From Modestobacter caceresii (lineage in GTDB: Bacteria; Actinomycetota; Actinomycetes; Mycobacteriales; Geodermatophilaceae), in NCBI RefSeq assembly GCF_000761485.1, contig NZ_JPMX01000075.1:7502-71501 (forward strand): a stretch of 64,000 nucleotides of DNA, read 5' to 3'. Position 1 is the first letter of the stretch. Each line of letters starts with the position of its first letter. A program made the position numbers and the translations under genes. The notes below the pieces were generated by a model that was not told the DNA's origin, did not search any database, and worked only from the letters and a program-made list of their open reading frames with translations. Shown piece by piece: positions 7,380-49,100 of the stretch.

Positions 7380-7541
7380 GGACGCCCTTCCCTGGACCGG
7401 CCGGGGGAAGGGCGGCGGTGGTCGGCTGGATCGCCCATGCGGGTGGTGCGACCGGCCCCCGGAGCCCCCGGCTCCTGAGACCCATGGTGCCACTCGATCG
7501 TGCGCGATGCAGGGGTCCGGCGACACCGTCCGTGCTGCGCC

Positions 7542-32815: not shown

Positions 32816-33109
32816 TCAGACCTCGTACTGGACCGCCGACCGGCTCGCCAGGTGCGGCTTCACGTGCTCGGCGATCACCGCCAGGTGCCGGGGGTCGGCG
32901 GCGTAGGCGCGGAACGCCTCGACGTCGGGGAAGTCGGCCACCAGTGCGGTGTGCGCGTTCCCGTCCACGAGCCCGGCGTCGGGACCGACCGCGAAGGCGG
33001 TCATCCCACCGACCTCCTCGGGCAACCGGCCGAGCGCGGCGACCGTGGCCTCCCGCGTCTGCGGGGAGGTGTCCTCGGTCCAGGTGAACAGCACGACGTG
33101 GCGCAGCAT
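32816..33109 (-). CDS. Dabb-family (stress-responsive A/B barrel) protein
   Basis: The protein has 97 residues from ATG 33109. The first residues LRHVVLFTWTEDTS and the later FRAYAADPRHLAVIAEHVKP are the Dabb signature of a dimeric alpha+beta barrel. Family members range from stress proteins to olivetolic acid cyclase-like enzymes; here no partner is adjacent. The 152 bases between it and DUF4192 contain no gene I can support. It is divergent from the GT4 operon across 64 bases. Confidence 0.88.
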   Translation of the reverse strand: MLRHVVLFTWTEDTSPQTREATVAALGRLPEEVGGMTAFAVGPDAGLVDGNAHTALVADFPDVEAFRAYAADPRHLAVIAEHVKPHLASRSAVQYEV

Positions 33110-33173
33110 GAGCGCACCCTGCCAGGCCGGTCCGGGCACGGGCCAACCGGAGCGCCCTCGTTACAGTCCGGTC

Positions 33174-34448: not shown

Positions 34449-35200
34449 CCGTCGACTACGACCTGCTCGACGTCCGGCCGGGCATGCGGGTGCTGGACCT
34501 GGGGTGCGGCGAGGGCCGGCACGCCTTCGAGGCCTACCGGCGCGGGGCGAGCGTCCTCGCGGTCGACTGGGGGCAGCAGGAGGTGGCCACCACCGCCCAG
34601 TGGCTGGGAGCGATCACCGCCGCCGGCGAGGCCCCGGCAGGTGCGTCCGCGGGAGTGGCCCGCGGCGACCTCCGCTGCCTGCCGGTCCCCGATGCCAGCG
34701 TCGACCGGGTGATCGCCTCCGAGGTGCTCGAGCACATCGTCGACGACCGCACGGCCCTGGCCGAGATCGCCCGGGTGCTCAAGCCCGGTGGCCGGGTCGC
34801 GGTGAGCGTGCCCCGGTACGGCCCCGAGCGGATCTGCTGGGCGCTGTCGGACGGCTACCACGCCAACGAGGGCGGGCACATCCGCATCTACCGGGGCGAC
34901 CAGCTGTGGGAGCGGCTCGCCGGGGCCGGGCTGCGGCCGACCGACGCCCACCACGCCCACGCCCTGCACGCCCCGTACTGGTGGCTCAAGTGCGCGGTCG
35001 GGGTCGACCGGGACACCGCGCTCGTCCGCGGCTACCACCGGCTGCTGGTCTGGGACCTGGTGCGCCGTCCCTGGCTGACCCGAACCGCCGAACGGCTGCT
35101 GGACCCGCTTCTCGGCAAGAGCCTCGTCCTCTACGCCGACAAGCCGCCGACCGCCGCTGGTGAGGCCGCTGCCGCGCACGGGGCACTCGCGAGTGCCTGA
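34442..35200 (+). CDS. Class I SAM-dependent methyltransferase (UbiE/Methyltransf_11 type)
   Basis: The protein has 252 residues from GTG 34442, with GGAGGAAG upstream inside the previous gene. Motif I is MRVLDLGCGEGRHAFEAYRR, motif II has VLAVDWGQQE and post-motif I SEVLEHIVDDRTALAEIARV. The C-terminal part has APYWWLKCAVGVDRD, a hydrophobic patch that may bind a lipid-like acceptor. The overlap with its neighbours (7 and 8 bases) puts it in one operon with the glycosyltransferases. Confidence 0.9.
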   Translation: MLTVDYDLLDVRPGMRVLDLGCGEGRHAFEAYRRGASVLAVDWGQQEVATTAQWLGAITAAGEAPAGASAGVARGDLRCLPVPDASVDRVIASEVLEHIVDDRTALAEIARVLKPGGRVAVSVPRYGPERICWALSDGYHANEGGHIRIYRGDQLWERLAGAGLRPTDAHHAHALHAPYWWLKCAVGVDRDTALVRGYHRLLVWDLVRRPWLTRTAERLLDPLLGKSLVLYADKPPTAAGEAAAAHGALASA

Positions 35201-36260
35201 CTGCACGCCGGCGCTGCCCGAGGTCCCCGGCGTGCTCACCGCCGACCAGGTGCGCCGGACCGTGGCGGCGATCGCCGCCGAGCAGTCCGCCGACGGCGCC
35301 CTGCCGTGGTTCCGCGGTGGGCAGCTGGACGCCTGGGACTCCGTCGAGGCGGCGATGGCGCTCGATGTCGGCGGGGAGCACGAGCGGGCTCGCGCCGCCT
35401 ACGACTGGCTGGCCGGGCGACAGCGCGCCGACGGCTCCTGGGCGGCCGAGTACCGGGACGGCGCCGTCGTCGCCCCGGCGGTGGAGAGCAACCACGCGGG
35501 CTACCTCGCTGTCGGGGTGTGGCACTCCTGGCTGTGCACCGGTGACGCCGGGGTGGTCGACCGGTTGTGGCCCACGGTGCGCCGGGCACTGGACCTGGTG
35601 GCGACGATGCAGCTGGCCACCGGGGCGATCAGCTGGGCGCTGCGCCCGGACGGGACGCCGGACGACACCGCCCTGCTCACCGGGAACGCGAGCCTGTTCC
35701 AGGCGCTGCGCGCCGGGATCGCGCTGGCCGACCTGGTCGGTGCGGCCCGGCCGGACTGGGAGCTGGCCGCCGAGGACCTCGGCCGGGCACTGCGGCACCA
35801 GCCCGCTGCGTTCGCCGACCGGTCGCGGTACTCGATGGACTGGTACTACCCGGTGCTGGCCGGTGCGCTCACCGGCCCGGCGGCCGAGGCGCGGCTGTCC
35901 GCCGGCTGGGACACCTTCGTCGTCCCCGGGCTCGGCGTGCGGTGCGTCGCCGACCGGCCGTGGGTGACCGGCGCGGAGACCTGCGAGCTGGCACTGGCAC
36001 TCGCCGCCGCCGGCCGGCCGGCGGACGCGACGGAGCAGCTGGCCGCCATGCAGCACCTGCGGGCCGAGGACGGCTCGTACTGGACCGGCCTGGTCTACGC
36101 CGACGACGCCCGCTGGCCGGTCGAGCGCACCACCTGGACGGCGGCCGCCGTGGTGCTGGCCGCCGACGCCATCGCCGGCACCGGCCCGGCCGCCGCACTC
36201 TTCGCCGACCCGGCTGCACTGGAACTGGACCGCGCCGCGGTGACGGAGGTCCTGCGGTGA
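35193..36260 (+). CDS. Alpha/alpha-toroid protein (prenyltransferase/squalene-cyclase-like)
   Basis: The protein has 355 residues from GTG 35193, overlapping the methyltransferase by eight bases. It contains repeated helical-pair blocks with QW-like cores: DGALPWFRGGQLDAWDSVEA, RQRADGSWAAEYRDG and RAEDGSYWTGLVYADDARWP. These are the mark of terpenoid cyclase/prenyltransferase alpha-alpha barrels. The DXDD motif of class II cyclases is not evident, although a DAWDSVEA acidic patch is present. Such stand-alone members in GT/methyltransferase clusters are of unknown function. They may bind an isoprenoid or a glycan. Confidence 0.75.
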   Translation: MPDCTPALPEVPGVLTADQVRRTVAAIAAEQSADGALPWFRGGQLDAWDSVEAAMALDVGGEHERARAAYDWLAGRQRADGSWAAEYRDGAVVAPAVESNHAGYLAVGVWHSWLCTGDAGVVDRLWPTVRRALDLVATMQLATGAISWALRPDGTPDDTALLTGNASLFQALRAGIALADLVGAARPDWELAAEDLGRALRHQPAAFADRSRYSMDWYYPVLAGALTGPAAEARLSAGWDTFVVPGLGVRCVADRPWVTGAETCELALALAAAGRPADATEQLAAMQHLRAEDGSYWTGLVYADDARWPVERTTWTAAAVVLAADAIAGTGPAAALFADPAALELDRAAVTEVLR

Positions 36261-36271
36261 CGGAGGTCCTG
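36238..36271 (+). repeat. Perfect 17-base tandem duplication at the gene junction
   Basis: CGGTGACGGAGGTCCTG at 36238-36254 is repeated at 36255-36271. The first copy codes for the last residues of the toroid protein. The second contains its stop codon and the GGAGG ribosome site of the next gene. Confidence 0.95.
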
Positions 36272-36273
36272 GG

Positions 36274-37158
36274 TTGACGCTCGGACCCATCGGGCACGAT
36301 CACCCGGTGCGCACAGAGCCCAGGACCTCGGCGGTGACCTGCGTGGTGGCCAGCCGCAACCGCCGCGACGACCTCCTGGCCAGCCTGCCCCGACACGAGG
36401 CCCCGGTGGTGCTGGTCGACAACGCCTCCACCGACGACACGGTCGCCGCGGTGCGGGCCGCGCACCCGGAGGTCACCGTCGTCCCGCTGGACCGCAACAC
36501 CGGCGCCGTCGCCCGCACCCTCGGCGTCGCCCGCGCCGGTACGCCCTTCGTCGCCTTCACCGACGACGACTCCTGGTGGGCGCCCGGCGACCTGGCGCGG
36601 GGGGTGGAGATCATGCGCGCGCACCCGCGGCTGGGGTTGCTGGCCGCCCGGATCCTGGTGGGCCCCGCCGAGGAGCTCGACCCGGTCTGCACCGAGATGG
36701 CCGACAGTCCGCTGGCCAGCGAGCCCGACCTGCCCGGCCCGTCGCTGCTCGGCTTCGTCGCCTGCGCCGCGCTGGTGCGGACCGAGGCGTTCACCGCGGT
36801 CGGCGGCTTCGACCGGGTCGTCCGCTTCCCCGGCGAGGAGGAGCGGCTGGCGCTGGACCTCGCAGCCGCCGGCTGGGGCCTGGCCTACGTCGACGAGGTC
36901 ACCGTGCACCACCACCCCTCCACCCACCGGGAGCCCAGCACCACCCGGCAGGCGGGCATCTGGCGCAGCCGCGTGCTCACCGCGCTCATGCGCTACCCGC
37001 TGCGCGACGTCGCCGGCCAGCTGGTCCGGTCCGCGCGCGCCGGCCGTCCCGGCTGGCGGGGACTCGCCGGGGCGGTGCCCCGGGTCCCGGCCGCCCTGCG
37101 CAACCGGCGGGTGCTCCCCCAGCACGTGATGGCCGGCGTCCGGGAGCTGGCGTCATGA
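36274..37158 (+). CDS. GT2-family glycosyltransferase (first of a tandem pair)
   Basis: The protein has 294 residues from TTG 36274, chosen because GGAGG (36262-36266) is seven bases away; GTG 36307 is an alternative without a ribosome site. The GT-A domain starts VTCVVASRNRRDDLLASL, with nucleotide-sugar residues VVLVDNASTDDTV and the metal-binding DxD in FVAFTDDDSWWAPGDL. The conserved acidic residue is in FPGEEERLALDLAAAG. It inverts the sugar linkage as a family rule. It is clearly paralogous to the next gene (DDDSWW vs DDDTWW, ending RNRRVLPQH vs RERRVLPPH). Confidence 0.87.
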   Translation: MTLGPIGHDHPVRTEPRTSAVTCVVASRNRRDDLLASLPRHEAPVVLVDNASTDDTVAAVRAAHPEVTVVPLDRNTGAVARTLGVARAGTPFVAFTDDDSWWAPGDLARGVEIMRAHPRLGLLAARILVGPAEELDPVCTEMADSPLASEPDLPGPSLLGFVACAALVRTEAFTAVGGFDRVVRFPGEEERLALDLAAAGWGLAYVDEVTVHHHPSTHREPSTTRQAGIWRSRVLTALMRYPLRDVAGQLVRSARAGRPGWRGLAGAVPRVPAALRNRRVLPQHVMAGVRELAS

Positions 37159-38090
37159 CGAGCGAGCCGACCGGACCGGCGGCCTCGGACAGCGGCCGGG
37201 ACCCCCGCGTCGCCGTCGTCGTCATCACCCACGACCGCCGGGACGAGCTGTTGCTGGCGCTGTCCCGGCTGCGCGACCTGCCCGAGCAGCCGCACGTGGT
37301 CGTCGTGGACAACGGCTCGAGCGACGGCACCGCCGACGCGGTGCGCACCCAACACGCGTGGGTCGAGCTGATCGCCAGCCCGGAGAACCTGGGCGCGGTC
37401 GGCCGCAACCTGGGTGTGGCCCGGCTGGACACCCCGTACGTCGCCTTCTGCGACGACGACACCTGGTGGGACCCGGGCTCGCTCCGCACCGCGGCCGACG
37501 CGCTGGACGCCCATCCGCGGCTGGCCGTGGTCACCGCCCGGATCGTGGTCGAGCCCGGCGGTGTCGAGGACCCGATCGTCGCCGAGCTGCGCGACTCCCC
37601 CGTGGTCGGCGCCGACTGGCTGCCCGGACCGGCGCTGGGCAGCTTCCTGGCCGGTGCCAGCGTGCTGCGCCGGGATGCGTTCACCGAGGTCGGCGGCTTC
37701 TCCGAGCGCCTGTGGCTGGGCGGCGAGGAGGAGCTGATGGCCGGGGACCTGGCGGCGGCCGGCTGGGAGCTCTGCTACCTGTCCACGATCGCGATCCACC
37801 ACCAGGCCAGCACCGCCCGCGACCCGCACAAGCGGAGGCAGGACGGCATCCGCAACACGCTGTGGACCACGTGGCTGCGCCGCCCGTTCCGGCCCGCGCT
37901 GCGACGCACCGTGCACCTGCTGCGCACCGTCCCCCGCGACCGGGTCACCGCCCGGGGGCTGCTCGCCGCGGCCCGCGGCCTGCCCTGGGTGCTGCGTGAA
38001 CGCCGGGTGCTGCCCCCGCACGCGGAGGCCCGGTTCGCTGCCCTGGAACACGCCCAGCGCAGTTCCAGCGCCCGCCGCTACGTGAGCTGA
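37155..38090 (+). CDS. GT2-family glycosyltransferase (second of a tandem pair)
   Basis: The protein has 311 residues from ATG 37155, overlapping the previous stop (ATGA). Core motifs: VAVVVITHDRRDELLLALSR, VVVVDNGSSDGTADAV, VAFCDDDTWWDPGSLRTAAD and LGGEEELMAGDLAAAGWELC. The C-terminal Arg-rich helical tail (FRPALRRTVHLLRTVPRDR) may touch the membrane. It is the last gene of the operon started by the GT4. The two GT2 enzymes may add successive sugars to the same acceptor. Confidence 0.9.
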   Translation: MTSEPTGPAASDSGRDPRVAVVVITHDRRDELLLALSRLRDLPEQPHVVVVDNGSSDGTADAVRTQHAWVELIASPENLGAVGRNLGVARLDTPYVAFCDDDTWWDPGSLRTAADALDAHPRLAVVTARIVVEPGGVEDPIVAELRDSPVVGADWLPGPALGSFLAGASVLRRDAFTEVGGFSERLWLGGEEELMAGDLAAAGWELCYLSTIAIHHQASTARDPHKRRQDGIRNTLWTTWLRRPFRPALRRTVHLLRTVPRDRVTARGLLAAARGLPWVLRERRVLPPHAEARFAALEHAQRSSSARRYVS

Positions 38091-38106: not shown

Positions 38107-38715
38107 TCAGCTCGGCTGGGCGGGCGTGGCGTCGGACTCCCGGACGGCCGGGGAGCCGCGACGGGAGACGAGGTAGAGCGCGGTCAGCACGCCGGTCAGG
38201 ACGACCACGACCACCGCCGTCCTCGCCCCCGACCACGACGGCATGGCCGGGTCGACGACGTCGGTGGACTGCAGCCCGTCGGCCAGCGCCACCACCGCGC
38301 CGGACCAGTCCCCCTCCACGACGGCGGGCTCGACGTCCTCGTCGACCAGGGTCTCGACGGCGTCCGGCTGCAGCGTCGACTCGTCCCCGATCCACCACTC
38401 GTACGCGGCCTCGTCCGTCGCGACGGCCAGCAGCACCTCCTCGGCGCCGAGCTCGGACCGCATCGCGGTCAGCTCGGCCCAGTCGGCGTCGTCGGTCGCG
38501 CCGTCGAAGGAGGGCACGAAGACGGCGGACAGGGCGATGCCGGCCTCCCGGCGGAGCTCGGCCACGGCGCGCTCGGCCGCTCGGGCGTCCGCGCCGAGGA
38601 CGCCGGCCTCGTCCGTGATCGGTGCATCGACCGCCATCGGCTGCTCGGCCATCGCGATCCCTGCGGGCAACGACCCGGTGATCAGGACGACCAACAACGC
38701 GATGCGCGTGCGCAC
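38107..38715 (-). CDS. TPM-domain exported membrane-anchored protein
   Basis: The protein has 202 residues if it starts at GTG 38715, five bases after AGGGAG. A signal peptide (RTRIALLVVLITGSLPAGIA) ends near residue 24 (MAEQP). The TPM domain follows: ITDEAGVLGADARAAERAVAEL, SAVFVPSFDGATD, EVLLAVATDEAAYEWWIGD. One membrane segment (TAVVVVVLTGVLTALYLVSR) near residue 175-190 anchors it outside. TPM domains are found in photosystem-II repair protein Psb32 and many phosphatase-like actinobacterial proteins; no catalytic role is established here. It is convergent with the GT2 gene. Confidence 0.85.
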   Translation of the reverse strand: MRTRIALLVVLITGSLPAGIAMAEQPMAVDAPITDEAGVLGADARAAERAVAELRREAGIALSAVFVPSFDGATDDADWAELTAMRSELGAEEVLLAVATDEAAYEWWIGDESTLQPDAVETLVDEDVEPAVVEGDWSGAVVALADGLQSTDVVDPAMPSWSGARTAVVVVVLTGVLTALYLVSRRGSPAVRESDATPAQPS

Positions 38716-38940
38716 ACACACTCCCTCTGGATCGATGGGACGGACACCTGCGGGGCCGACGACCTCCGCGGCTCGGGGACGTCCGCCGACGAGGCCATTC
38801 CCCTGTCGGCGAGCTTGATCGAATGCGGACCGCGCTGCAGCGAATGGTCGTCCAATTCGCGAACACGCGGGGCGCCCGCGCAATTGCGTCATTGATCAGT
38901 GACGACCAGTGAGCGAGATGTTCCGGGAATGTGCCCGTGC
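38716..38940. promoter_or_regulatory. AT-richer spacer upstream of the TPM gene
   Basis: This gap holds an AT-rich patch (about 38812-38920) that is unlike its surroundings. It contains CGAACACG at 38860-38867, a motif seen twice more at 39731 and 39804, and an AATTGC-type patch near 38880. It must carry the TPM promoter. No gene is supported here. Confidence 0.4.
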
Positions 38941-39678
38941 TCACTCAACCCCGCACTGGCCTTTCCGGTGCGCCGTGGCCAGCTCGGTGGACGAACGGAC
39001 CGCGGGGACGCCCGCCCCCGCGACGGCCACCAGCGCCCGTCGCGTCGGGTCGCGCCAGTCGACCAGGCGCAGGCCGCGGTACCGGCTCACCGAGCGTCCG
39101 GCCCGGTGGTGGCGCTCGACCACCCGCGACAGGTCGATCCGGTCCACCTGGTCCAGCGGCGCCACCCCGGCCTTCACCAGGCACTCCTTGCGGACCCAGT
39201 GGCGGAGGGCGAGCAGGGAGGGGTCCGGCACCGAGCGCAGCTGCCACTGCTCGGCCGGGGCGAGCCCGGGGAACCGCCCGACCACGGACCCGTCCGGCGG
39301 GAACGTCTCGACGTCCACCCCGACCGGGTGCCATGACGCAGCCGCCACCACGGCACCACGGCTGTGCCCCCAGCTGATGTGGACGTCCGGGGACCCCGCG
39401 ATCGAGGGGCGCCCGTGCCCCGCCGTCCCACAGTCGGCACACCACTGGTGCACGGCCAGGTCGGCCACCGGCCGTCCGCTGAGCGCAGCGGCGCACCGGC
39501 GGACCAGCAGGTGTGCGGCGACGTAGGCGGCCCGATCCGCCGGGTCGTGCAGGGACGCGCTGCGCTGCCGTTCGGCGGCGCCGAGCAGGCCGACATCGGC
39601 GTTCGCGAGGACCTCGGCGGGGGTGGCCACCACGACCAGGGGTCGCCGAGCAGGTGCCCGGCGCATGAGAGCGAACAC
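38941..39678 (-). CDS. Sfp-type 4'-phosphopantetheinyl transferase
   Basis: The protein has 245 residues from GTG 39678, which has GGAAGGGG four bases upstream; ATG 39666 is an alternative. The family magnesium and CoA signatures are present: PVGVDVETFPPD (GxDxE) and LRHWVRKECLVKAGVA (W-x2-KE-x3-K). ISWGHSRGAVVAAAS contains the conserved His/Ser region before it. It transfers the phosphopantetheine arm to carrier-protein serines. The gene is divergent from the Pls-like synthetase, so that T domain is its obvious substrate. The length is usual for the Sfp class. Confidence 0.9.
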   Translation of the reverse strand: MFALMRRAPARRPLVVVATPAEVLANADVGLLGAAERQRSASLHDPADRAAYVAAHLLVRRCAAALSGRPVADLAVHQWCADCGTAGHGRPSIAGSPDVHISWGHSRGAVVAAASWHPVGVDVETFPPDGSVVGRFPGLAPAEQWQLRSVPDPSLLALRHWVRKECLVKAGVAPLDQVDRIDLSRVVERHHRAGRSVSRYRGLRLVDWRDPTRRALVAVAGAGVPAVRSSTELATAHRKGQCGVE

Positions 39679-39924
39679 CAGTCCCCTTCCCGGCCGGCAC
39701 GTCGGCGCCGCGGCGTGTGCTGTGACTGTACGAACACGTTCAATTGCGCAAAGAATTGATCTTCACATTCGTGTTTGAGGAAGTTGAACGCTCAGGAATT
39801 GGTCGAACACAGCGAGTCAGGACCGCAGAAACAAATGTGAGTTCACCCGGAATGAGTGGCGGGAGCCTGTGCTTCTCCCTAGCGTCGGACGAAATTCTTG
39901 ATTGTCAACTTTGAGAGCGAGTCG
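39679..39924. promoter_or_regulatory. AT-rich divergent control region of the Pls-like cluster
   Basis: These 246 bases are the most AT-rich stretch of their size in the window. They contain CGAACACGTTC (39731-39741; the inner GAACACGTTC is near-palindromic), CGTGTTT (39770-39776) and CGAACAC (39804-39810), so one motif appears on both strands, plus AATTG-type patches. They separate the PPTase and synthetase genes. A DNA-binding regulator or xenogeneic silencer is likely to act here. Confidence 0.55.
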
Positions 39925-42900
39925 ATGGCGACGGAGAGCGACAGCCGGGACTTCATCCCAGGCTTCACCACCCCCAGAGAACCGGCAGCCGACTCCTCGA
40001 CCCGACGCTTCTCCTTCGCCGGCAACGTCGCGGGGGCTCCGCCCCGACCGCAGCAGGACACGACCCGGCTGTCCCAGTACTTCGAGCGGACCTGCGACGA
40101 GCGCCCCTCGGCGACGGCGCTGGAGTGCGACGGCGAGCGACTGAGCTACGCCGACCTGGACCAGCGGGCCAACCGGCTGGCGAACCACCTGCTCGGCCTC
40201 GGCGTGCGGTCCGGCGTCCGGGTCGGCATCCTGCTGGACCGCTCGGTCAACACCTACGTCGCCCTGCTCGCGGTGACCAAGACCGAGGCGACCTTCGTGC
40301 CGATCGACCCGGCGGCGCCGGCGGACCGGGTGCAGTTCATCGCCGAGGACTCCGACCTCGGCCTGGTGGTCACGACCACCTCCTTCGCCGCGACCTGCAG
40401 CGGGGTGCCCTGCCCGCCGTTGTTCCTGGACGAGCTGGGCGGCGATCTCGCGGCCGCCCCGAGCTGGCGCCCCGACCTCGAGACCGGCGGCGACCCGGTC
40501 GCCTACATCATCTACACCTCGGGTTCCAGCGGCCGCCCCAAGGGCGTCGAGATCGCCCAGTCGAGCATCTGCAACTTCATCGGCATCGTCCCGGTCCTGT
40601 ACGGCGTCGAGCCGAGCGACCGGGTCTACCAGGGCATGACGATCGCCTTCGACTTCTCCATCGAGGAGATCTGGCCGACCTGGGCGGTGGGCGCGACCCT
40701 CGTCGCCGGGCCCACCGACGGGCGCCGGGTGGGTTCGGGGCTGGCCGACTTCCTGGCCGAGCAGGAGATCACGATGATCTACTGCGTCCCCACCGTGCTG
40801 GCCACCCTCGACCGCACCCTCCCGCTGATCCGCACGGTGAACGTCGGCGGCGAGGCCTGCCCGCGTGAGCTCGTCGACCGGTGGGGCCCCGGCCGCCGGA
40901 TCCTCAACACCTACGGGCCGACGGAGACCACGGTCACCTGCACGATGGCCGAGCTGTACCCCGGCAAGCCGGTGACGATCGGGCGACCGCTGCCCACCTA
41001 CCGCGTCACCCTGCTGGACGACGAGCGCCGGCCGGTGGCCAACGGCGAGGTCGGCGAGATCTGCGTCGGCGGCCCCGGGGTGGCCCTCGGGTACGTCAAC
41101 CGCCCCGACCTGACCGCCGATCGCTTCCTCCCCGACCCGCACGGCTTCCCCGGCGAGCGGCTCTACCGCACCGGTGACCTGGGGCGCTTCCTCCCCGACG
41201 GCGAGCTGGAGTACCTCGGCCGCGCAGACAGCGAGGTCAAGGTCCGCGGCCACCGCGTCGACCTCCAGGAGATCGAGGGGATGCTGCTGCAGCACGACCG
41301 GGTCACCGCCGCGGTCGTCACGCTGCTGGAGGCGCCGGAGACCGGCGGAGAGCTCGCCGCCTACGTGATCCCCCGCCCTGGGGACGATGCCGAGGGCCTC
41401 GTCACCGAGCTGCACGACCTGGTCCTGGAGCAGCTGCCGCCCTACATGGTCCCGGCCTTCCTCGACGTCGTCTCGACCATCCCGATGCTGCCGAGCGGCA
41501 AGGCCGACCGGAAGGCGCTGCCGGAGCCCCGGGGCCCGCGCCTGATGCGGGACACCGGTGCGCACGTGCCCCCGGACTCCCCCACCGAGGCGTGGGTGGC
41601 CGGCATCTGGGAGGAAGCGTTCGGTCTGCCCGGCGGATCGGTGTCGGTGGAGGCCAACTTCTTCGACGCGCTGGGTGGCCACTCGCTGCTCGCCGCGCGG
41701 ATCATCTCCACGATGCGCTCCAGCGACCTGGGCGCCGGTCTCTCCATCCTCGAGCTCTACCGGCACCCGACGGTCCGTTCGCTCGCCGCGCACCTGGAGG
41801 AGGACGCCCGGGCCGGTGAGGCCGTCGCCGAGCCGCACCTGCGCCGCCCGGTGCAGTCCTCCCGCCGCCGGGTCGCCGCCTTCGGCAGCGCCCAGCTCGC
41901 CACCTTCTACGGCATCGTCCTGCTCTTCCTGTTCCCGGCCGCGGTGGTCTACGCAGTGAACGACGGGGAGCCCTCGGTCGCCCTCGTGCTCCAGCTCGCC
42001 CTCGCACTGCCGGCGTTCTTCCTCGTCGTCCGCTGGGTGCTGCCGGTCGTCGGCTCCCGGCTGCTCTCCCGTGGCCTGCAGCCCGGTGACCACCCGCTGT
42101 GGAGCTGGACCCACCTGCGGGTCTGGACGATCCAGAAGCTGATGGTGATCTCCCCCCTCACGGTCCTGAGCGGATCGCCGTGGGCGGCCACCTACCTGCG
42201 CCTGGCCGGAGCACGGATCGACGACGACTGCCACATCGGGACGTCGGAGATCAGCCTCCCGGCGATGCTGGACGTGGGCCCCGGGGCGACCCTCGGCTAC
42301 GGCACCCAGCTGCACGGCCACCGCATCGCCGACGGCGTCCTCTCCCTCGGGGTCGTCTCCGTGGGTGCCGGGGCGACCCTCGGCTCGCAGTCGCTGCTGG
42401 AGGCCGGCTCGGCGGTCGAGGACGGCGGCGTGCTGCGCGAGCAGTCGCTGCTGCCCGCCGGTCAGGTCGTCCCCGCCGGGGCGACCTGGGCCGGGTCACC
42501 GGCCCAGGCCTCGACCGAGCCGACCGACCCGGTGCTCGCGCTGATGACCGGCTGCACCGCGGCACCGACCACCTGGTCGCGTCAGCTGCGGACCGGCTTC
42601 GCCGCCGGCATCGGGCTCCTGGAGCTGCTGCCCTTCCTCGTGCTGCTGCCGGTGGTGGCGCTGGTCTGGTGGGTGCTGCTCACCTTCGGGCTGGGCGCCG
42701 CCATCCTCGCCACCGCGCTGTCGGGGCCGGTCTTCGTGGCGGCCTCCTGCGCGCTCATCCTGGGCTCCCGTCGGCTCGCCCTGACGGAGACACCGCCCGG
42801 CGTGCACCACGTGCGCTCCAAGCTCGGGCTGGAGAAGTGGCTGGGCGACAAGCTCCTCGAGATGAGCCTGATGCTCAACAACAGCATGTACGCGACGCTG

Positions 42901-44079
42901 TACACCTCCATCTGGCTGCGGGCCATGGGCACCAAGGTCGGCCGTGGCGCCGAGGTCTCCACGATCGCCAACATCGACCCCGACCTGCTCACCCTCGGCG
43001 AGGGCAGCTTCGTCGCCGACATGGCCAGCGTCGGCAGCGCCACCTACGCCAACGGGCACGTGGCCTTCCAGGTCACCGAGGTCGGCGCCCGCGCCTTCGT
43101 CGGCAACGCCGCCTTCATCCCCTCCGGTTCACACCTGGGCGAGGGCTCGCTGATCGGCGTGCGCAGCGTGCCGCCGACCACCGGCGTCGAGGCGAACAGC
43201 TCCTGGCTGGGTTCCCCACCGATCAACCTGCCGCGCCGGGAGATGTTCGAGGAGTACACCGAGGCGGAGACCTTCACGCCCAGCCGCCGACGGGTCCGCG
43301 CTCGGTACGCCATCGAGTTCCTGCGGATCGTGCTGCCCAGCTCGATCCTCGCGTTGGCGATGTTCGCGACGCTGTACGGGGTCTCCCTGCTCGCGGCGAA
43401 CCAGAACGCGTTCGTCACCGTGGTGGTGGCACCGCTGATCGCGCTGCTGTCCAGCCTCACCGTCGTGGTGGCGGTGGCCCTGCTCAAGTGGGCCATGGTC
43501 GGCCGGTACAAGCCGCGGGTCCGTCCCCTGTGGAGCGGGTTCGTGCGTCGCACCGAGTTCGTCACCGGCATCTACGAGGCGGCCGCCGTCCCGGCGCTGC
43601 TGACCTGGCTGACCGGCACCCCGCTGCTCGGCCCGCTGCTGCGGCTCTACGGGGCGAAGATCGGCCGGCGGACGCTGATCGACACCACCTACCTCACCGA
43701 GTTCGACCTGGTGACCCTGGGCGACGACGTCTCCGTGGGGACCAACGCCTCGCTGCAGACCCACCTGTTCGAGGACCGGGTCATGAAGATGGACCACGTC
43801 GTCATCCGGGACCGGGCCAGCGTCGGGGACAAGTCCGTGGTCCTCTACGGCTCGATCATCGAGGCGGACGCCACGCTCGCCGACCTCTCCCTGGTGATGA
43901 AGGGCGAGGTGCTGCCCGCCGGCACCGCGTGGAGCGGCATCCCCGCCCAGAAGGTCGGCCGCGCCCCGGCCAGCACGCTGCCGGTGCGGGACGACCCATC
44001 TCTCGACAGCCCGGCGGTCGACAACCCGACAACGGAGAGCCGTCAGCTCAGCACCGCGTCGAACAGCCGGGAGGTGTGA
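39925..44079 (+). CDS. Pls/PosA-type membrane-bound single-module peptide synthetase
   Basis: The protein has 1384 residues from ATG 39925. Adenylation domain about 45-530: A3 IIYTSGSSGRPKGV near 194, A4 FDFSIEEIW, A5 NTYGPTETTV near 329, A7 YRTGDLGRF, A8 VKVRGHRVDLQEIE and A10 LPSGKADRKAL near 523. Carrier domain with phosphopantetheine Ser587 in FDALGGHSLLA. Then membrane segments and three soluble left-handed beta-helix domains (about 758-858, 985-1095, 1232-1345). No condensation or thioesterase domain. This is the layout of epsilon-poly-L-lysine synthetase Pls, where the three C-terminal domains join monomers by isopeptide bonds. By hand alignment the pocket starts Asp-Phe-Glu; the Glu fits a basic amino acid, but may be general to the family. 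The product is inferred. Confidence 0.9.
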   Translation: MATESDSRDFIPGFTTPREPAADSSTRRFSFAGNVAGAPPRPQQDTTRLSQYFERTCDERPSATALECDGERLSYADLDQRANRLANHLLGLGVRSGVRVGILLDRSVNTYVALLAVTKTEATFVPIDPAAPADRVQFIAEDSDLGLVVTTTSFAATCSGVPCPPLFLDELGGDLAAAPSWRPDLETGGDPVAYIIYTSGSSGRPKGVEIAQSSICNFIGIVPVLYGVEPSDRVYQGMTIAFDFSIEEIWPTWAVGATLVAGPTDGRRVGSGLADFLAEQEITMIYCVPTVLATLDRTLPLIRTVNVGGEACPRELVDRWGPGRRILNTYGPTETTVTCTMAELYPGKPVTIGRPLPTYRVTLLDDERRPVANGEVGEICVGGPGVALGYVNRPDLTADRFLPDPHGFPGERLYRTGDLGRFLPDGELEYLGRADSEVKVRGHRVDLQEIEGMLLQHDRVTAAVVTLLEAPETGGELAAYVIPRPGDDAEGLVTELHDLVLEQLPPYMVPAFLDVVSTIPMLPSGKADRKALPEPRGPRLMRDTGAHVPPDSPTEAWVAGIWEEAFGLPGGSVSVEANFFDALGGHSLLAARIISTMRSSDLGAGLSILELYRHPTVRSLAAHLEEDARAGEAVAEPHLRRPVQSSRRRVAAFGSAQLATFYGIVLLFLFPAAVVYAVNDGEPSVALVLQLALALPAFFLVVRWVLPVVGSRLLSRGLQPGDHPLWSWTHLRVWTIQKLMVISPLTVLSGSPWAATYLRLAGARIDDDCHIGTSEISLPAMLDVGPGATLGYGTQLHGHRIADGVLSLGVVSVGAGATLGSQSLLEAGSAVEDGGVLREQSLLPAGQVVPAGATWAGSPAQASTEPTDPVLALMTGCTAAPTTWSRQLRTGFAAGIGLLELLPFLVLLPVVALVWWVLLTFGLGAAILATALSGPVFVAASCALILGSRRLALTETPPGVHHVRSKLGLEKWLGDKLLEMSLMLNNSMYATLYTSIWLRAMGTKVGRGAEVSTIANIDPDLLTLGEGSFVADMASVGSATYANGHVAFQVTEVGARAFVGNAAFIPSGSHLGEGSLIGVRSVPPTTGVEANSSWLGSPPINLPRREMFEEYTEAETFTPSRRRVRARYAIEFLRIVLPSSILALAMFATLYGVSLLAANQNAFVTVVVAPLIALLSSLTVVVAVALLKWAMVGRYKPRVRPLWSGFVRRTEFVTGIYEAAAVPALLTWLTGTPLLGPLLRLYGAKIGRRTLIDTTYLTEFDLVTLGDDVSVGTNASLQTHLFEDRVMKMDHVVIRDRASVGDKSVVLYGSIIEADATLADLSLVMKGEVLPAGTAWSGIPAQKVGRAPASTLPVRDDPSLDSPAVDNPTTESRQLSTASNSREV

Positions 44080-44081
44080 CC

Positions 44082-45434
44082 GTGTCGCAGACCAGCGCGC
44101 ACCAGAACATCGTGGCTCCGCTGCCGCCGGAGGTCCCGACGGCGACGGCAGCGGCTCTGCCGCACAGCTGTGCCCCCACGCAGCCGGGTGACGTCGCCGG
44201 CACCCCGGCCGAGGGCACCCCTGCAGGTCCGCCGGCCGCGGCGCCCCGGCGCCCGAAGGCACGCCTGGTCGGGATCGACGCCGCCCGCGGTGTCGCCCTG
44301 GTGGGCATGATGTCGGTCCACCTGATCCCCGCGGCCACCGCCGACGGGGACGTGTCCTGGGCCTGGCTGCTGTCCAACGGCAAGGCCTCGGCGTTGTTCG
44401 CCCTGCTCGCCGGCGTCGGCATCGCCTTCTCCACCGGTGGGCACCGGCCGCCGAGTGGCCTGGCCTGGCGGGCCGGCGCACTGTCGCTGCTGACCCGCGC
44501 CGTGATCATCGCGGCGATCGGCCTCGCGCTCGGCTACGTCGTCGGCACGGACGACGCCGCGGTGATCCTCGCCTACTACGGCGTGCTCTTCGCTCTCGCC
44601 ATCCCCTTCCTGCGGCTCTCCACCCGCGGCCTGGTGGTGGCGGCCGCGATCGCGGCGCTCGTCATGCCGCTGGTCAGCTACGGGCTCCGCAGTGAGATGA
44701 CGCCGGTCGCCGAGGTCAACCCGACGCTGACCGACCTGGTCACCGACCCGCTGGGGCTGCTGTCCCGGCTGACCCTCACCGGGGTGTTCCCCGCCCTGGT
44801 CTGGATCGCCTACCTGCTGGCCGGCATGGCAGTGGGTCGGGCGGTGCTCGCCTCGCGGCGGGTCGTCGGCCAGCTCACCCTCATCGGCCTGGGGCTCGCA
44901 CTCGCCTCGAGCCTGCTGTCGATGCTGCTGCTGACCGCCGGCGGCCTGGGCAGCCGGCTGCGCGTGGACGCGCTGCAGACCATGGACTTCGAGCTCTACC
45001 AGGACACGTTGACCTGGGGGCCGTCCGGGGCGACGCCCACCAACAGCCCGTGGTGGCTGGCGGCCACGGCACCGCACAGCGGCAGCCCGCTCGACCTGGC
45101 CTTCACCATCGGGGTGGCGCTGGCGGTGCTGGGCGCGTGCCTGCTGCTCGGCCGGGGCCTGCAGCCGCTGCTGCGGCCGCTGGCCGCCGCCGGCAGCATG
45201 ACGCTGACCCTCTACAGCGTCCACCTGCTGCTGGTCGCCGCACCGCTGCCCCGCGGCGTCCTCAACCTCATCGTGCAGGTCGCCGTCCTGGTGGGCTTCG
45301 CCCTGGTCTGGAACCGGAGCCACCTGCGCGGGCCCCTGGAGGAGCTCGTCTGGCGGGTCACCGACGCCGTGCGCCGGAAGGTGCTCGGGTCGTCGGGCGC
45401 CCACCGGGCGCCGGCCGCCACGACCGGCAGCTGA
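44082..45434 (+). CDS. DUF418/heparan acetyltransferase-like polytopic membrane protein
   Basis: The protein has 450 residues from GTG 44082, with GGGAGG seven bases upstream; GTG 44076 also overlaps the previous stop. About 60 Pro/Ala-rich residues come first. The core begins RLVGIDAARGVALVGMMSVH, the DUF1624/DUF418 signature, followed by about ten membrane segments and ends with AAGSMTLTLYSVHLLLVAAP, typical of DUF418. Such proteins transfer acyl groups across membranes or export products. Two bases separate it from the synthetase, so it should act on or export the synthetase product. Confidence 0.85.
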   Translation: MSQTSAHQNIVAPLPPEVPTATAAALPHSCAPTQPGDVAGTPAEGTPAGPPAAAPRRPKARLVGIDAARGVALVGMMSVHLIPAATADGDVSWAWLLSNGKASALFALLAGVGIAFSTGGHRPPSGLAWRAGALSLLTRAVIIAAIGLALGYVVGTDDAAVILAYYGVLFALAIPFLRLSTRGLVVAAAIAALVMPLVSYGLRSEMTPVAEVNPTLTDLVTDPLGLLSRLTLTGVFPALVWIAYLLAGMAVGRAVLASRRVVGQLTLIGLGLALASSLLSMLLLTAGGLGSRLRVDALQTMDFELYQDTLTWGPSGATPTNSPWWLAATAPHSGSPLDLAFTIGVALAVLGACLLLGRGLQPLLRPLAAAGSMTLTLYSVHLLLVAAPLPRGVLNLIVQVAVLVGFALVWNRSHLRGPLEELVWRVTDAVRRKVLGSSGAHRAPAATTGS

Positions 45435-45436
45435 TC

Positions 45437-46156
45437 GTGTTCGGGCGTGGCGTGTTCGGGCGGGGCGGTGACCGGCGGCTGGCGCTGGTCTACCGGGGCC
45501 CGGCCTCCACGGCCGGGTGCCCGGAGGCGGTGGCCGGTGCGCTGGCGCGGAGCCGGTGGGACCTCGACGTCCGGTACGTCGGGCCCAAGGAGCGCCTCGC
45601 GCTGGAGCCGGCGGTGCTCGCCTCCGCCGTCCTGTACGCCCAGCCCGGCGGTGGCGAGCTGGACAGGGCCTGGCGCAAGCTCCGCCGCCAGGCCCCGGCG
45701 GTCCGTGACTACGTCGCCGGTGGGGGCCGCTACCTGGGCTTCTGCCTGGGCGGCTACCTCGCCGGAGAGACACCCGGTTTCGGGCTCCTGCCCGGGGACA
45801 CCGACCAGTTCATCGCCTCCCCGGGCGCGTGGCCGACGCACACCGACGACACGGTCGCCACCGTGATCTGGGACGGCCGCCGCCGCGAGGTGTTCTTCCA
45901 GGACGGCGCCTGGTTCGATCTCGACCCCGCCCGGGGGCCGGCCGAGGTGCTGGCCACCTACGAGAACGGGCTGCCCGCCGCGGTGGTCGCGCCCTTCGGT
46001 GCCGGTGCGGTCGGCGTCGTGGGGCCGCACCCGGAGGCGACGCCGGACTGGTTCACCGACTGTGGCCTGCCCGTGCCAGCGGACCTCCGGGCCGACCTCA
46101 CCCAGGACCTCGTCGACCGGGTGATGCAGCTGGGTCAGCTCGCCCCGGCCCACTGA
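45437..46156 (+). CDS. BPL_N-domain, class I glutamine amidotransferase-like protein
   Basis: The protein has 239 residues from GTG 45437, two bases after the previous stop; GTG 45452 is an alternative. The fold shows LALVYRGPASTAG, a Gly-rich turn (LYAQPGGGELDRAWRKL), the nucleophile elbow YLGFCLGGYLAGETPGF with Cys near residue 103 and GVVGPHPEATPDWF with His and Glu near 200. These form a Cys-His-Glu set. BPL_N is named from the N-terminal domain of some biotin-protein ligases; its reaction is unknown. The operon context suggests a role in polymer modification, trimming or amidation. Confidence 0.82.
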   Translation: MFGRGVFGRGGDRRLALVYRGPASTAGCPEAVAGALARSRWDLDVRYVGPKERLALEPAVLASAVLYAQPGGGELDRAWRKLRRQAPAVRDYVAGGGRYLGFCLGGYLAGETPGFGLLPGDTDQFIASPGAWPTHTDDTVATVIWDGRRREVFFQDGAWFDLDPARGPAEVLATYENGLPAAVVAPFGAGAVGVVGPHPEATPDWFTDCGLPVPADLRADLTQDLVDRVMQLGQLAPAH

Positions 46157-46243: not shown

Positions 46244-47425
46244 TCAGCCCTCGTCGAGGAAGCCGGCCACGATGGTGCCGAACTGGCCGTTCCGGCTGTG
46301 GCCGACCCCGGCGGGGGCGACCAGTCGGGTGTCGAGGCCCTGGGCCGCGTACCACCGCTCCCCGGCCTGCGCACCGTAGGGACCGGACAGCGCGTTGAAC
46401 CCGCCGCCGGCGCCGGTGTCCAGGGCGCCGGTGTCCCAGCGCAGCGCGACCTTCCCCTTCACGTCCGCGGGGATGGTGGCCCGACCGGCCGGTGCGCCAC
46501 CGCCGCCGATCGCGATGACCCCGCCGCCGCCGGACCACAGCGCCGGGTGGGCGGGGAAGACGAAGCGGGTCGCCGCCTGCGCACCGGACGAGTAGCCGGA
46601 GAACCACAGCTCACCGGCGCCGTACTGGGCCTTCGTCTCGGCGATCAGCGCCGCCAGGTACTTCGCGTACCCGGCCGCGTCCCCCCGCTCCCAGCACTGG
46701 CAGGAACGGTTCGGGCTGAACGGCGCCACGAGCACCATGTTGCGCGCCTTGGCCACGGCGGCGAGCCCGCTCGACCCGCCGATCGCGTAGGACTGGGTCG
46801 GGTTCTCGACGCCGTACTCGCCGGTGCCGTCGGCGTACACGAGCAGGCCGATCGGCTTCGCGGGGTCGATGCCCTCGGCGAAGACCCGGTAGTCCGCGGT
46901 GTACCCCGCGGCGCTGAAGGACGTCGTCCGGTTGGTCAGCGGCCCGGTGGGAGCCGACTTCGTCGGGGCGGTGGCGACCGGGGCAGGAGCGGGAGCCGGG
47001 GCCGGGGCCGGTGCCGGGGCGGGCGCCGGAGCCGGGGCGGGCGCCGGAGCCGGGGCGGGTGCCGGTGCGGGAGCGGGAGCCGGGGCGGGAGCGGGAGCCG
47101 GTGCCGGGGCGGTCGCCGTGGGCGCCGGCTTCTGCGTGCCCCGACGTGCCCGCTCGGAGTGCCGCGCAGGCTTCTCGGCTCGGGCGGCCTCGACCTGGAC
47201 CTCGGTCTCCGCCTGCGGCTGGACGTTGCTCACCGGCGACGCGACGGGCGAGCTGTCAGCGACGCTGGTGGCCCCGAACGTGGCGGTCACGCACAGGAAG
47301 GCGGCGGCGATGCCCGTCCGCGCACGCCGGCCGCTGCAGGTGGTGAGAGCGGACAGGAAGCGGCGGCCATGGCCACTCCGGGTGTGACGTCTGGACAAGA
47401 AGAGACCCCTTCGAGCGTCCGTCAC
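46244..47425 (-). CDS. Secreted PHB-depolymerase-like esterase with Ala-Pro linker
   Basis: The protein has 393 residues from GTG 47425; TTG 47398 has a better site (AAGGGG, seven bases). An Arg-rich start precedes a signal segment (TGIAAAFLCVTATFGATSVA, about 38-57). After a charged part comes an uninterrupted run of about 22 Ala-Pro pairs (about 107-150). The alpha/beta-hydrolase domain follows: LLVYADGTGEYG, nucleophile FSGYSSGAQAATRF and His in VGHSRNGQFG. The Asp is probably in LRWDTGALDTGAGG. It resembles PHB depolymerase/feruloyl esterase-type lipases. The linker would hold the enzyme away from the cell wall. The substrate is unknown. Confidence 0.8.
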   Translation of the reverse strand: MTDARRGLFLSRRHTRSGHGRRFLSALTTCSGRRARTGIAAAFLCVTATFGATSVADSSPVASPVSNVQPQAETEVQVEAARAEKPARHSERARRGTQKPAPTATAPAPAPAPAPAPAPAPAPAPAPAPAPAPAPAPAPAPAPAPAPAPVATAPTKSAPTGPLTNRTTSFSAAGYTADYRVFAEGIDPAKPIGLLVYADGTGEYGVENPTQSYAIGGSSGLAAVAKARNMVLVAPFSPNRSCQCWERGDAAGYAKYLAALIAETKAQYGAGELWFSGYSSGAQAATRFVFPAHPALWSGGGGVIAIGGGGAPAGRATIPADVKGKVALRWDTGALDTGAGGGFNALSGPYGAQAGERWYAAQGLDTRLVAPAGVGHSRNGQFGTIVAGFLDEG

Positions 47426-47660
47426 CTGGGGTGCGGACGGTGTGCGGTGATTACGGAACTGATCGTTACACGCACTTTGTGCATCCGTAAGGTCACGCTC
47501 GGTTCACAGTTGACTCGTTCGTCACAGCAGCAACAGCAACCTCGGGAGTCGGGTACGCCTGCCGCCCGGCACTGCCGAGGACCGCGGGTTGGCCCGAGTT
47601 GCACAACCGAGAGAATGGGACGCGGCGGGAGGATCCCGTCGTCCATCTCGAAGGGCAGTG
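47426..47660. promoter_or_regulatory. Divergent promoter region of the esterase and M1 peptidase genes
   Basis: The first 120 bases are AT-richer than the surroundings and include GATTACGGAACTGATCGTTAC and the small palindrome GCAC-TTT-GTGC (47472-47482). The rest is GC-rich. Both genes encode exported hydrolases and may share a control. Confidence 0.4.
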
Positions 47661-49100
47661 ATGCGCGCGGGTCGTCGTCGGGCCGCGGCCGCCGCGCTCA
47701 CCGGAGCCGTGCTGCTCGCCGGCTGTTCCACGAGCGACTCCCCCGACCCCGCGCCCCGGCCCACGTCCACCCCGGACGCCGCGGGCTGGCCCGAGCCCCG
47801 GGCCGACCGGCCGGTGGTCGACCTGCGCTTCGACGTCGCCGAGGACCTGGAGACGGTCTCCGGTGCGGAACGGGTGGTCTTCACCCCTGACCTCGACACC
47901 TGCGTGCTGGTCTTCCGCTCCTGGCCCAACAAGCCGGCCACCGCCCGGGCGGGCAGCGGGCTGACCGTGTCCGAGGTCCGGGTCGACGGCGAACCGGCCG
48001 AGGTGCGCGACGTCCCGGCCGGAGCCCCCGACAGCGCGCCCGCCGGCACGCTGCAGGAGGTGCCGCTGCCCGAGTGCGCGGAGCCCGGCGAGGAGATCAC
48101 CGTCGAGCTCGAGTTCGAGGTCGAGCTCGGCCCCGACGTCAACGAGCGGGTGGGCACCGCCGGCGGCGTCGACGTCGCCTGGTTCGCCACCGCCTTCCCG
48201 TTGCTCGCCTGGGAGCGCGGGCGGGGGTGGGACCGCAGCCCCGCCGTCGCCGTCGCCGGCGAGATGACGGTGAGCGAGGACTTCGAGCTGGCCTCGCTGG
48301 AGGTGGTCGCGGACTCCCGGTACGAGGTGCTCGGCATCGGCGAGGCGGTCGGCACCTCCGACGGACCGGGCGACACCACGGTCCACGAGTTCACCGCCCC
48401 GTCCGTCCGGGACGTCGCGGTGACCGTCGGGGAGCTCGACGTGCAGTCGGCGGAGATCGGCGGCGTCCGGGTGCACGTGGGCCTGGACGAGGGGGTGGAG
48501 GAGGCGACCGCGGCTGAGTGGCTGGCCCGGCTCGAGGAGTCGATGGGCGCCCTCGTCGCGCTGCTCGGCCCCTTCCCCTACGACGACCTCTGGGTCTCGG
48601 TGCTGTCCAGCCAGACCAGCGGCATCGAGTTCCCCGGGGCGATCCAGTTCGGCGACGTCGACCCGGACTTCCGCCGGGCGCTGGTGACCCACGAACTCGC
48701 GCACATGTGGTTCTACGGCCTGGTCGGCAACAACCAGGCCGTGCACCCCTGGCTTGACGAGTCGTTCGCGACCTTCGCGCAGATGGTCGTCCACGGGGAG
48801 GGCTCGGCCAGCATGGCCGACCTGCCGGGGTCCCGCCGGCACGGCGTGGGCGAGCCGATCCAGTACTGGGAGCAGTTCCGGCGGCCCAGCTCCGCCTACT
48901 ACGACACCGTCTACATCGTCGGCGGGACGACCCTGGCGGACGCCCGGACCCGGTTGGGCGTCGAGGCGTTCGACGCGGCGCTGCAGGAGTACCTGCGCGC
49001 GAACGCCTGGTCGATCGCCACCCCGGACGACGTCCAGGAGGCCTTCGCGGAGCTGCCCGAGGTGCTCACCGAGCTGGAGCGGGTCGGCGCGCTCCCCTGA
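47661..49100 (+). CDS. Lipoprotein with M1-type (gluzincin) metallopeptidase domain
   Basis: The protein has 479 residues from ATG 47661. A lipoprotein signal peptide ends in LLAGC (Cys about residue 22), followed by a Ser/Pro-rich tether. The N-terminal beta domain starts VVDLRFDVAEDLETVSGAER. The zinc motif is THELAHMWFYG with the third ligand in WLDESFATFAQ, exactly HExxH-x18-E. GIEFPGAIQFG takes the place of the GAMEN exopeptidase motif, as in many bacterial M1 relatives. It should be an extracytoplasmic aminopeptidase-like enzyme anchored to the membrane. The C-terminal helical domain is shorter than in full aminopeptidase N. Confidence 0.88.
   Translation: MRAGRRRAAAAALTGAVLLAGCSTSDSPDPAPRPTSTPDAAGWPEPRADRPVVDLRFDVAEDLETVSGAERVVFTPDLDTCVLVFRSWPNKPATARAGSGLTVSEVRVDGEPAEVRDVPAGAPDSAPAGTLQEVPLPECAEPGEEITVELEFEVELGPDVNERVGTAGGVDVAWFATAFPLLAWERGRGWDRSPAVAVAGEMTVSEDFELASLEVVADSRYEVLGIGEAVGTSDGPGDTTVHEFTAPSVRDVAVTVGELDVQSAEIGGVRVHVGLDEGVEEATAAEWLARLEESMGALVALLGPFPYDDLWVSVLSSQTSGIEFPGAIQFGDVDPDFRRALVTHELAHMWFYGLVGNNQAVHPWLDESFATFAQMVVHGEGSASMADLPGSRRHGVGEPIQYWEQFRRPSSAYYDTVYIVGGTTLADARTRLGVEAFDAALQEYLRANAWSIATPDDVQEAFAELPEVLTELERVGALP

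Follow-up and report, generated by a model that had tools for sequence, protein, structure and literature searches.

The analysed stretch of DNA (hereafter the window; 64,000 nucleotides, positions 7,502 to 71,501 of contig NZ_JPMX01000075.1 of Modestobacter caceresii, assembly GCF_000761485.1) holds a gene cluster built around a predicted poly(amino acid) synthetase. The synthetase gene (39925..44079, plus strand) encodes 1384 residues, with an adenylation (A) domain at 40081-41502, a thiolation (T) domain at 41593-41796, and a terminal domain at 41941-43947. It is followed on the same strand by the genes for a transmembrane-acyltransferase-like protein (44076 or 44082..45434; Pfam HGSNAT_cat, 38.6 bits, cut-off 22) and for a BPL_N protein with a class I amidotransferase-like fold (45437..46156; Pfam BPL_N, 49.2 bits, cut-off 24.2; Cys103-His198-Glu200). 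These three genes are packed nearly gap-free. In frame, the membrane gene could start as early as 44076, overlapping the synthetase stop, and more likely starts with the GTG at 44082, which is preceded by GGAGG at 44070-44074; the BPL_N gene begins with a GTG two bases past the end of the membrane gene. A Sfp-type 4'-phosphopantetheinyl transferase (PPTase) is encoded divergently from the synthetase (38941..39678, minus strand; Pfam ACPS, 27.5 bits, cut-off 25), across an intergenic region of 246 bp (39679..39924). In an alignment with five other Modestobacter genomes, conservation of this region was highest at 39879-39927, immediately upstream of the synthetase start codon and over it. The first-pass annotation had placed these four genes, all of which were confirmed by open reading frames (ORFs) and by matches to Pfam families and TIGR02353. 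Outside its interval lies the gene for an M1-family peptidase with the lipobox LLAGC (47589..49100, plus strand; Pfam Peptidase_M1, 43.9 bits; HEXXH-x18-E from residue 368), separated from the BPL_N gene by one opposite-strand gene.

The synthetase had been described as Pls/PosA-like, with A and T domains and membrane spans and lacking a thioesterase (TE), and the description held throughout. TIGR02353 matched residues 673-1341 with 563.5 bits (cut-off 423.1), Pfam gave AMP-binding (253 bits) and PP-binding (45 bits) matches, and no TE or condensation domain was listed in the Pfam search at E 0.001. A hydropathy scan predicted six spans in three pairs (starts 652/684, 901/921, and 1129/1166), and the same six-span layout is described for Pls (PMC8117764). 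The three beta-helix domains named in the first pass are predicted from the family match and from one Hexapep match (30.2 bits). The carrier Ser (residue 587; codon 41683-41685, plus strand, in the T domain) was conserved in all 100 aligned rows, and the loss of this residue in relatives, which the earlier annotation had raised as an objection to its own proposal, was not seen. The rows comprise 79 of the 80 named loci, which are the best 80 of 397 confirmed stretches, together with the window itself and 20 further loci, some from genomes already represented; L114, for which no ORF was called, was omitted. By these matches, the window synthetase is a member of the Pls/PosA family and hence a known kind of enzyme, and its place in this family gives good support for reading the locus as a poly(amino acid) cluster, with the product predicted. 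The window genome (4.95 Mb, given as 100% complete) contains one full TIGR02353 match. A 1398-aa frame on contig C21 was considered as a possible paralogue and rejected; from its own sequence and its neighbours, we read it as an unrelated AMP-ligase.

The A-domain pocket code of the window synthetase is DFEYNGTVTK, so that the Asp-Phe-Glu read by hand in the first pass was correct. The ten code positions were placed via the motif anchors of GrsA. As a control, polylysine-type enzymes gave Ala at position 2, in agreement with the PosA paper. Asp1 and Glu3 were present in 100 of 100 rows; in PosA, Asp1 binds the alpha amine and Glu3 the side-chain amine of the substrate (PMC10522769). A basic amino acid therefore fits, as had been suggested from the Glu. 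Ninety-eight rows read DFE.xGTVTK, where position 4 is Tyr, Cys, or Phe and position 5 is variable (Leu, Asn, Val, Met, Ile, and others); the two deviating rows read DAESIGTVVK (the polylysine-type copy chosen for L133) and DFECLSTVTK (L061). Position 2 is reported to set the chain length, with Ala for lysine, Met for ornithine, and Phe for diaminopropionate or diaminobutyrate (PMC10522769). Since the window code has Phe rather than Ala at this position, lysine is unlikely. We infer that the substrate is basic and short, that is, a short diamino acid, with diaminopropionate as the first candidate and diaminobutyrate as the next.

The window code differs from the Pls, PosA, and diaminobutyrate-type codes. 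The same mapping gave DAESIGTVVK for the Pls of Streptomyces celluloflavus and DFECLSAVTK for another synthetase of this species (L176). Genes for an aminotransferase and an aspartate kinase come after L176, as has been reported for the diaminobutyrate enzyme (PMC8117764). By this context, L176 is our candidate for PldA, the gamma-poly-diaminobutyrate synthetase; another S. celluloflavus locus, L119, was rejected for this role, as its neighbours are not dat and ask. L176 resembles the window synthetase in its layout, in Phe2, and in a downstream membrane acyltransferase-like gene (37% identity), and differs in its code, in the adjacent dat and ask, in having no BPL_N gene, and in falling into a separate clade. 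Of the 25 rows in the tree, 18 form the clade of the window synthetase, and the three DFECLSA-type, dat/ask-linked rows fall outside it with support 98/95; L189, L190, and L210 are absent from this tree, and L061 forms a long branch. The clade contains L206, with the code DFEYMGTVTK. Its genome is close to Streptomyces albulus, the species known to produce poly-diaminopropionate, and has a Pls core 92% identical to PDB 7wew; another genome of this kind (93%) shows the same code. The poly(L-diaminopropionic acid) synthetase of S. albulus, PDAPs, was sought via the 7wew sequence in 392 Streptomyces genomes taken from a larger group, where the best match was 93%, so that only relatives were reached. 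PDAPs of S. albulus PD-1 (EXU85975.1; PMC4668381) shares the layout with the window synthetase, as well as Phe2 (PMC10522769), and the relatives close to S. albulus carry a BPL_N gene in addition to the code above.

Two synthetases lie outside this pattern. Those of L189 and L190 (Pseudonocardia and Actinomycetospora) match TIGR02353 and carry the odd codes GGECVSAVAQ and DLLRLSLVAR, which may be misaligned; in L190, a membrane gene adjoins the synthetase.

Profile searches near the synthetase in the 80 named loci found the BPL_N gene in 57, the membrane gene in 51, the M1 gene in 29, and the PPTase gene in 12. Counted by label (28 labels, three of them above genus rank), the numbers were 22, 19, 10, and 5, and among the 66 loci outside Geodermatophilaceae they were 45, 37, 17, and 2, with the BPL_N and membrane genes occurring jointly in 31. 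L183, in which the gene caller split the synthetase, lies outside the type counts, and the type of L213 is unsettled. In the tblastn locus survey, the query for BPL_N started in the wrong frame and contained two stops, which makes its BPL_N matches lower bounds; the profile and ORF counts of BPL_N use the correct frame. Nine of the 12 Streptomyces loci of this type have a BPL_N gene. All four partners are absent from the six loci of Kocuria, Sinomonas, Nocardioides, Hamadaea, and Nostocales. Within Geodermatophilaceae, 17 of 19 loci of this type (L042-L060, by tblastn) hold all four genes together with those for a TPM-domain protein, a hydrolase-like protein, and the M1 peptidase, and with the full set together this often, the association is not due to chance. 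The linkage is also independent of our own gene caller, because RefSeq annotates the same row on the Rhodococcus plasmid pLRE138, where genes for a synthetase, a BPL-N domain, and a heparan-alpha-glucosaminide N-acetyltransferase domain are consecutive with 4-base overlaps. Ten polylysine-type loci, from genomes chosen for their other synthetases and thus a non-random sample, gave 0 BPL_N, 0 membrane, 8 M1, and 0 PPTase genes.

The co-occurrence of the genes, which the first pass had named as a check, is supported for the BPL_N and membrane genes, which accompany the synthetase across many genera; the link to the PPTase is almost restricted to Geodermatophilaceae (12 of 80 loci by ORF; 15 of 80 when tblastn matches are counted, two weak ones included). 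At the level of sequence, none of the three outcomes that the first pass had listed as refuting its proposal was seen. A similar distribution was found for the TPM gene (12 of 80, all Geodermatophilaceae) and the hydrolase-like gene (13 of 80, 12 of them Geodermatophilaceae). This near-confinement to one family would be expected if the functional unit were the synthetase with the BPL_N and membrane genes, and the PPTase, TPM, hydrolase-like, and M1 genes were steady neighbours only. We consider such a reduced unit somewhat unlikely: the M1 gene lies near the synthetase under 10 of the 28 labels and in 8 of the 10 polylysine-type loci (among the 29 M1 loci of the survey, 26 at about 39% identity or more and 3 at 26-28%), and a PPTase gene also follows the membrane gene in L214 and L215, two SbnB-linked clusters of another type.

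The membrane protein was modelled from 37 sequences (pLDDT, the predicted local distance difference test score, 86.2), and its ten best PDB matches, all of them weak, were human HGSNAT entries and the related 8jkv and 8jl4. Asp68, Arg71, and His82, which form a DxxRx10H pattern, were invariant in 37 of 37 membrane proteins. DxxRx10H is the motif of AT3 acyltransferases (PMC12423673, PMC9833829), and its Arg and His are located in the AT3 acyl-donor pore (PMC9833829). Because of the weak HGSNAT-like fold match and the invariant AT3 motif, the membrane protein is more plausibly an acyltransferase than a plain exporter. Of the roles offered in the first pass (modification, export, or trimming), an acyltransferase-like modifier is favoured by these data and an exporter is disfavoured. 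The TmAT superfamily (HGSNAT, AT3/OafB) provides the nearest parallel through the HGSNAT_cat match and the motif; it differs in that its acceptors are glycans, whereas we propose a poly(amino acid) as acceptor, and in that the identity to HGSNAT is 14-16% in the weak fold matches. Similar membrane genes also come after synthetases of other types, namely in L176 and L178 (DFECLSA type) and in the clusters L214 and L215, whose terminal-domain protein lacks an A domain. This suggests that the membrane protein acts on products of terminal-domain proteins.

Acyl transfer could alternatively take place at the cell surface, with no free polymer being made: the synthetase would hand an aminoacyl group or a short peptide to a surface acceptor, and the acyltransferase would modify that surface polymer. 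AT3-type proteins do modify mostly surface glycans (PMC9558356, PMC9833829), the terminal domain resembles acyltransferases (Hexapep), and glycosyltransferase genes lie to the left of the cluster. These glycosyltransferases are, however, not retained beside the synthetase outside the genus, and the characterised enzymes of this layout make free polymers (PMC8117764, PMC4668381, PMC10522769), which makes a surface acceptor very unlikely.

The BPL_N protein was modelled from 54 sequences (pLDDT 93.5). Its best matches were the class I glutaminases Pdx2 and HisH, with the gamma-glutamyl peptidase GGP1 at rank 26, and the structure matches also include non-catalytic fold relatives, such as GH42 galactosidase domains. 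Cys103, His198, and Glu200 were present in 54 of 54 BPL_N proteins. The protein thus shares the fold and the Cys-His-Glu triad with the class I glutaminases (Pdx2/YaaE, HisH) and GGP1, at identities below 21% among the matches listed. After inspection, 21 of 91 BPL_N members, which come partly from repeated genomes, carried a signal of the twin-arginine translocation (Tat) type (23 by pattern; L111 and L132 were dropped); a looser pattern, which gave 30 of 77, was too lax and was not used. Two BPL_N members occur in 17 of 80 loci, and the window protein itself has no export signal. The apparently exported paralogues fit a product hydrolase better than an ammonia supplier for monomer synthesis, a role that we rejected on this ground. 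The M1 protein is, from its lipobox, probably an external lipoprotein. Its obvious parallel is PldII of S. albulus, an aminopeptidase outside the membrane that is coupled to pls (PMC9223678); the S. albulus Pls and PldII pair resembles the window in the synthetase layout and in the M1-type peptidase gene beside the synthetase, while Pls differs in its code (DAESIGTVVK) and in the lack of BPL_N and membrane genes in the ten polylysine-type loci.

From the observed gene content, motifs, linkage, and modelled folds, we propose that the product of the cluster is a homopolymer of one short basic amino acid, joined by isopeptide bonds; the chain would be acylated on the outer side of the membrane and shortened by hydrolases dedicated to it. 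We assign this reading a probability of about 0.55. The PPTase would arm the carrier Ser of the synthetase, and the A domain would load a diamino acid, most likely L-2,3-diaminopropionate (L-DAP) and next L-2,4-diaminobutyrate. The membrane-bound terminal domain would then couple the units iteratively and probably deliver the chain outward. The membrane protein may take acyl groups from acyl-CoA in the cytosol and attach them to free amines of the polymer outside the membrane, and the acylation would reduce the polymer charge or block aminopeptidases. Hydrolysis of the chain by the BPL_N enzyme and the M1 lipoprotein would set its length and protect the producer, as PldII does for polylysine. 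In this scheme, the outward delivery and what each of the three accessory enzymes acts on are conjectures.

Several results weigh against this proposal, the main weakness of the substrate prediction being the absent monomer pathway. The window genome had no match to the OCD family, in a search whose control was positive in 8 of 14 genomes, and none to the SbnB family at 1e-20; Dat remained below the cut-off (best 243.7 bits versus 401.6), the best match being presumably GabT. The genome therefore offers no known source for diaminopropionate or diaminobutyrate, and it differs from the PDAPs producer in lacking the reported type of L-DAP genes (SbnB/NjxB-like OCD), which in S. albulus also lie away from the synthetase (PMC4668381). 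Regarding the partner genes, none of the four was found in 15 of 80 loci, some on contigs that end nearby, and the Streptomyces loci of this type had the membrane gene in 0 of 12 and the M1 gene in 1 of 12. In fold, the membrane protein resembles its best PDB matches weakly (TM-score 0.44-0.47, root-mean-square deviation 8-10, only 4 matches at E <=0.001). Furthermore, pdaps alone yielded polymer in S. lividans fed with L-DAP (PMC4668381), and polymer also formed in S. coelicolor that carried just a pls gene from Corynebacterium (PMC8117764); in these tested cases, polymer formation did not require the accessory genes. Recombinant Pls itself forms C-terminal esters (PMC9606270), so release need not require BPL_N.

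If the monomer were instead an ordinary cellular amino acid, no special monomer genes would be needed, and the failure to find a diaminopropionate or diaminobutyrate pathway in the window genome would be explained. The product would then be delta-poly-ornithine or, less likely, epsilon-polylysine. The window code agrees with that of PosA, the delta-poly-L-ornithine synthetase of Acinetobacter baumannii (DMEHNGTVSK), at 7 of 10 places, including Asp1, Glu3, Asn5, Gly6, and Thr7, and the layout is the same (PMC10522769); PosA is reported as a single-gene operon (PMC10522769). Nevertheless, all three differences (Met2 to Phe, His4 to Tyr, and Ser9 to Thr) shrink the pocket, the shared Asn5 stands at a position that varies among relatives, and the polylysine-type code is DAESIGTVVK. 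We therefore judge ornithine or lysine quite unlikely and retain the short diamino acid as the predicted monomer.

SbnB-family genes occur elsewhere among the relatives. In Geodermatophilaceae, they exceeded the cut-off in 17 of 112 genomes, at 18 places; at 13 of these, a different TIGR02353 protein with a higher score, of another type than that of the window, is encoded no more than about 6 kb away. Outside this family, 12 of 19 genomes with the window synthetase type hold an SbnB-family gene over the cut-off, often adjoining another TIGR02353 protein. A separate cluster type is seen at L215:5124-17137 and L214:5818-16073 (Geodermatophilaceae genomes G048 and G057), where the genes for a terminal-domain protein without an A domain, a separate A-domain protein, an SbnB-family protein, a membrane acyltransferase-like protein, and a PPTase stand in a row, with an SbnA-like gene recognised by eye in L215. 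Such pairs were found at the 13 of 18 SbnB places, and their product possibly contains diaminopropionate. In 13 of 80 loci (Micromonosporaceae and others), a DDAH/arginine-deiminase-family protein is encoded between the synthetase and BPL_N; that of L076 (12107-12928) matched DDAH_eukar with 46.5 bits, and it may bear on the monomer.

Taken as a whole, the interpretation in the first-pass annotation is partly supported. The new part is the set of conserved acyltransferase-like and Cys-triad partners, and the synthetase itself is of a known kind. We found no paper in the open-access literature on accessory acyltransferase-like and Cys-triad partners with these synthetases, and we know of no role for the partner genes of the window synthetase. 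Polycations of this kind are used as food preservatives and delivery agents, and an acylated or shorter variant would therefore extend the set. A 2015 paper called the mechanism of polymer release and length control in the TE-less synthetases of this family unknown (PMC4668381); the BPL_N protein (22 of 28 labels) and the membrane protein (19 of 28) are two concrete candidates for a part in releasing, trimming, or capping the chain. The absent monomer pathway, for its part, shows the limit of substrate calls from a pocket code. A wider possibility, unlikely at present, is that the window represents a large branch of actinobacterial polycation clusters, undescribed as such, in which TmAT-like proteins acylate poly(short diamino acids) across the membrane and BPL_N enzymes trim or release them inside the cell and, via the Tat-type paralogues, outside.

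The closest named relatives in the search were Modestobacter VKM Ac-2977, 2982, 2984, and 2985, with synthetase identities of 93-98% (best segment). The synthetase type is patchy within the genus, being present in 9 of 23 genomes, the window genome counted. Plasmid-borne relatives comprise 44 records; the large plasmids that carry them belong to Rhodococcus, Streptantibioticus, Streptomyces, and others, and a match in Sphingomonas parapaucimobilis (38% identity) covers a synthetase and an annotated PPTase gene. Second synthetase copies occur in Geodermatophilus africanus (L047) and G. siccatus (L053), where the membrane gene is the sole partner kept. In Streptomyces pinistramenti (L133:7944-18540), tandem synthetases with the codes DFEYVGTVTK and DAESIGTVVK have a BPL_N gene between them and an M1 gene after them, possibly forming a double polymer cluster.

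The remaining genes around the cluster comprise the TPM-domain protein (38107..38892, minus strand; Pfam TPM_phosphatase, 46.7 bits), encoded on the same strand as the PPTase and 48 bp beyond it, and the hydrolase-like protein (46244..47425, minus strand), which has a Pro-Ala-rich linker, a GYSSG motif recognised by eye, and no Pfam family match. To the left of the cluster, at 32949-38090 of the window, a run of glycosyltransferase and methyltransferase-like genes is retained in close Modestobacter relatives only.

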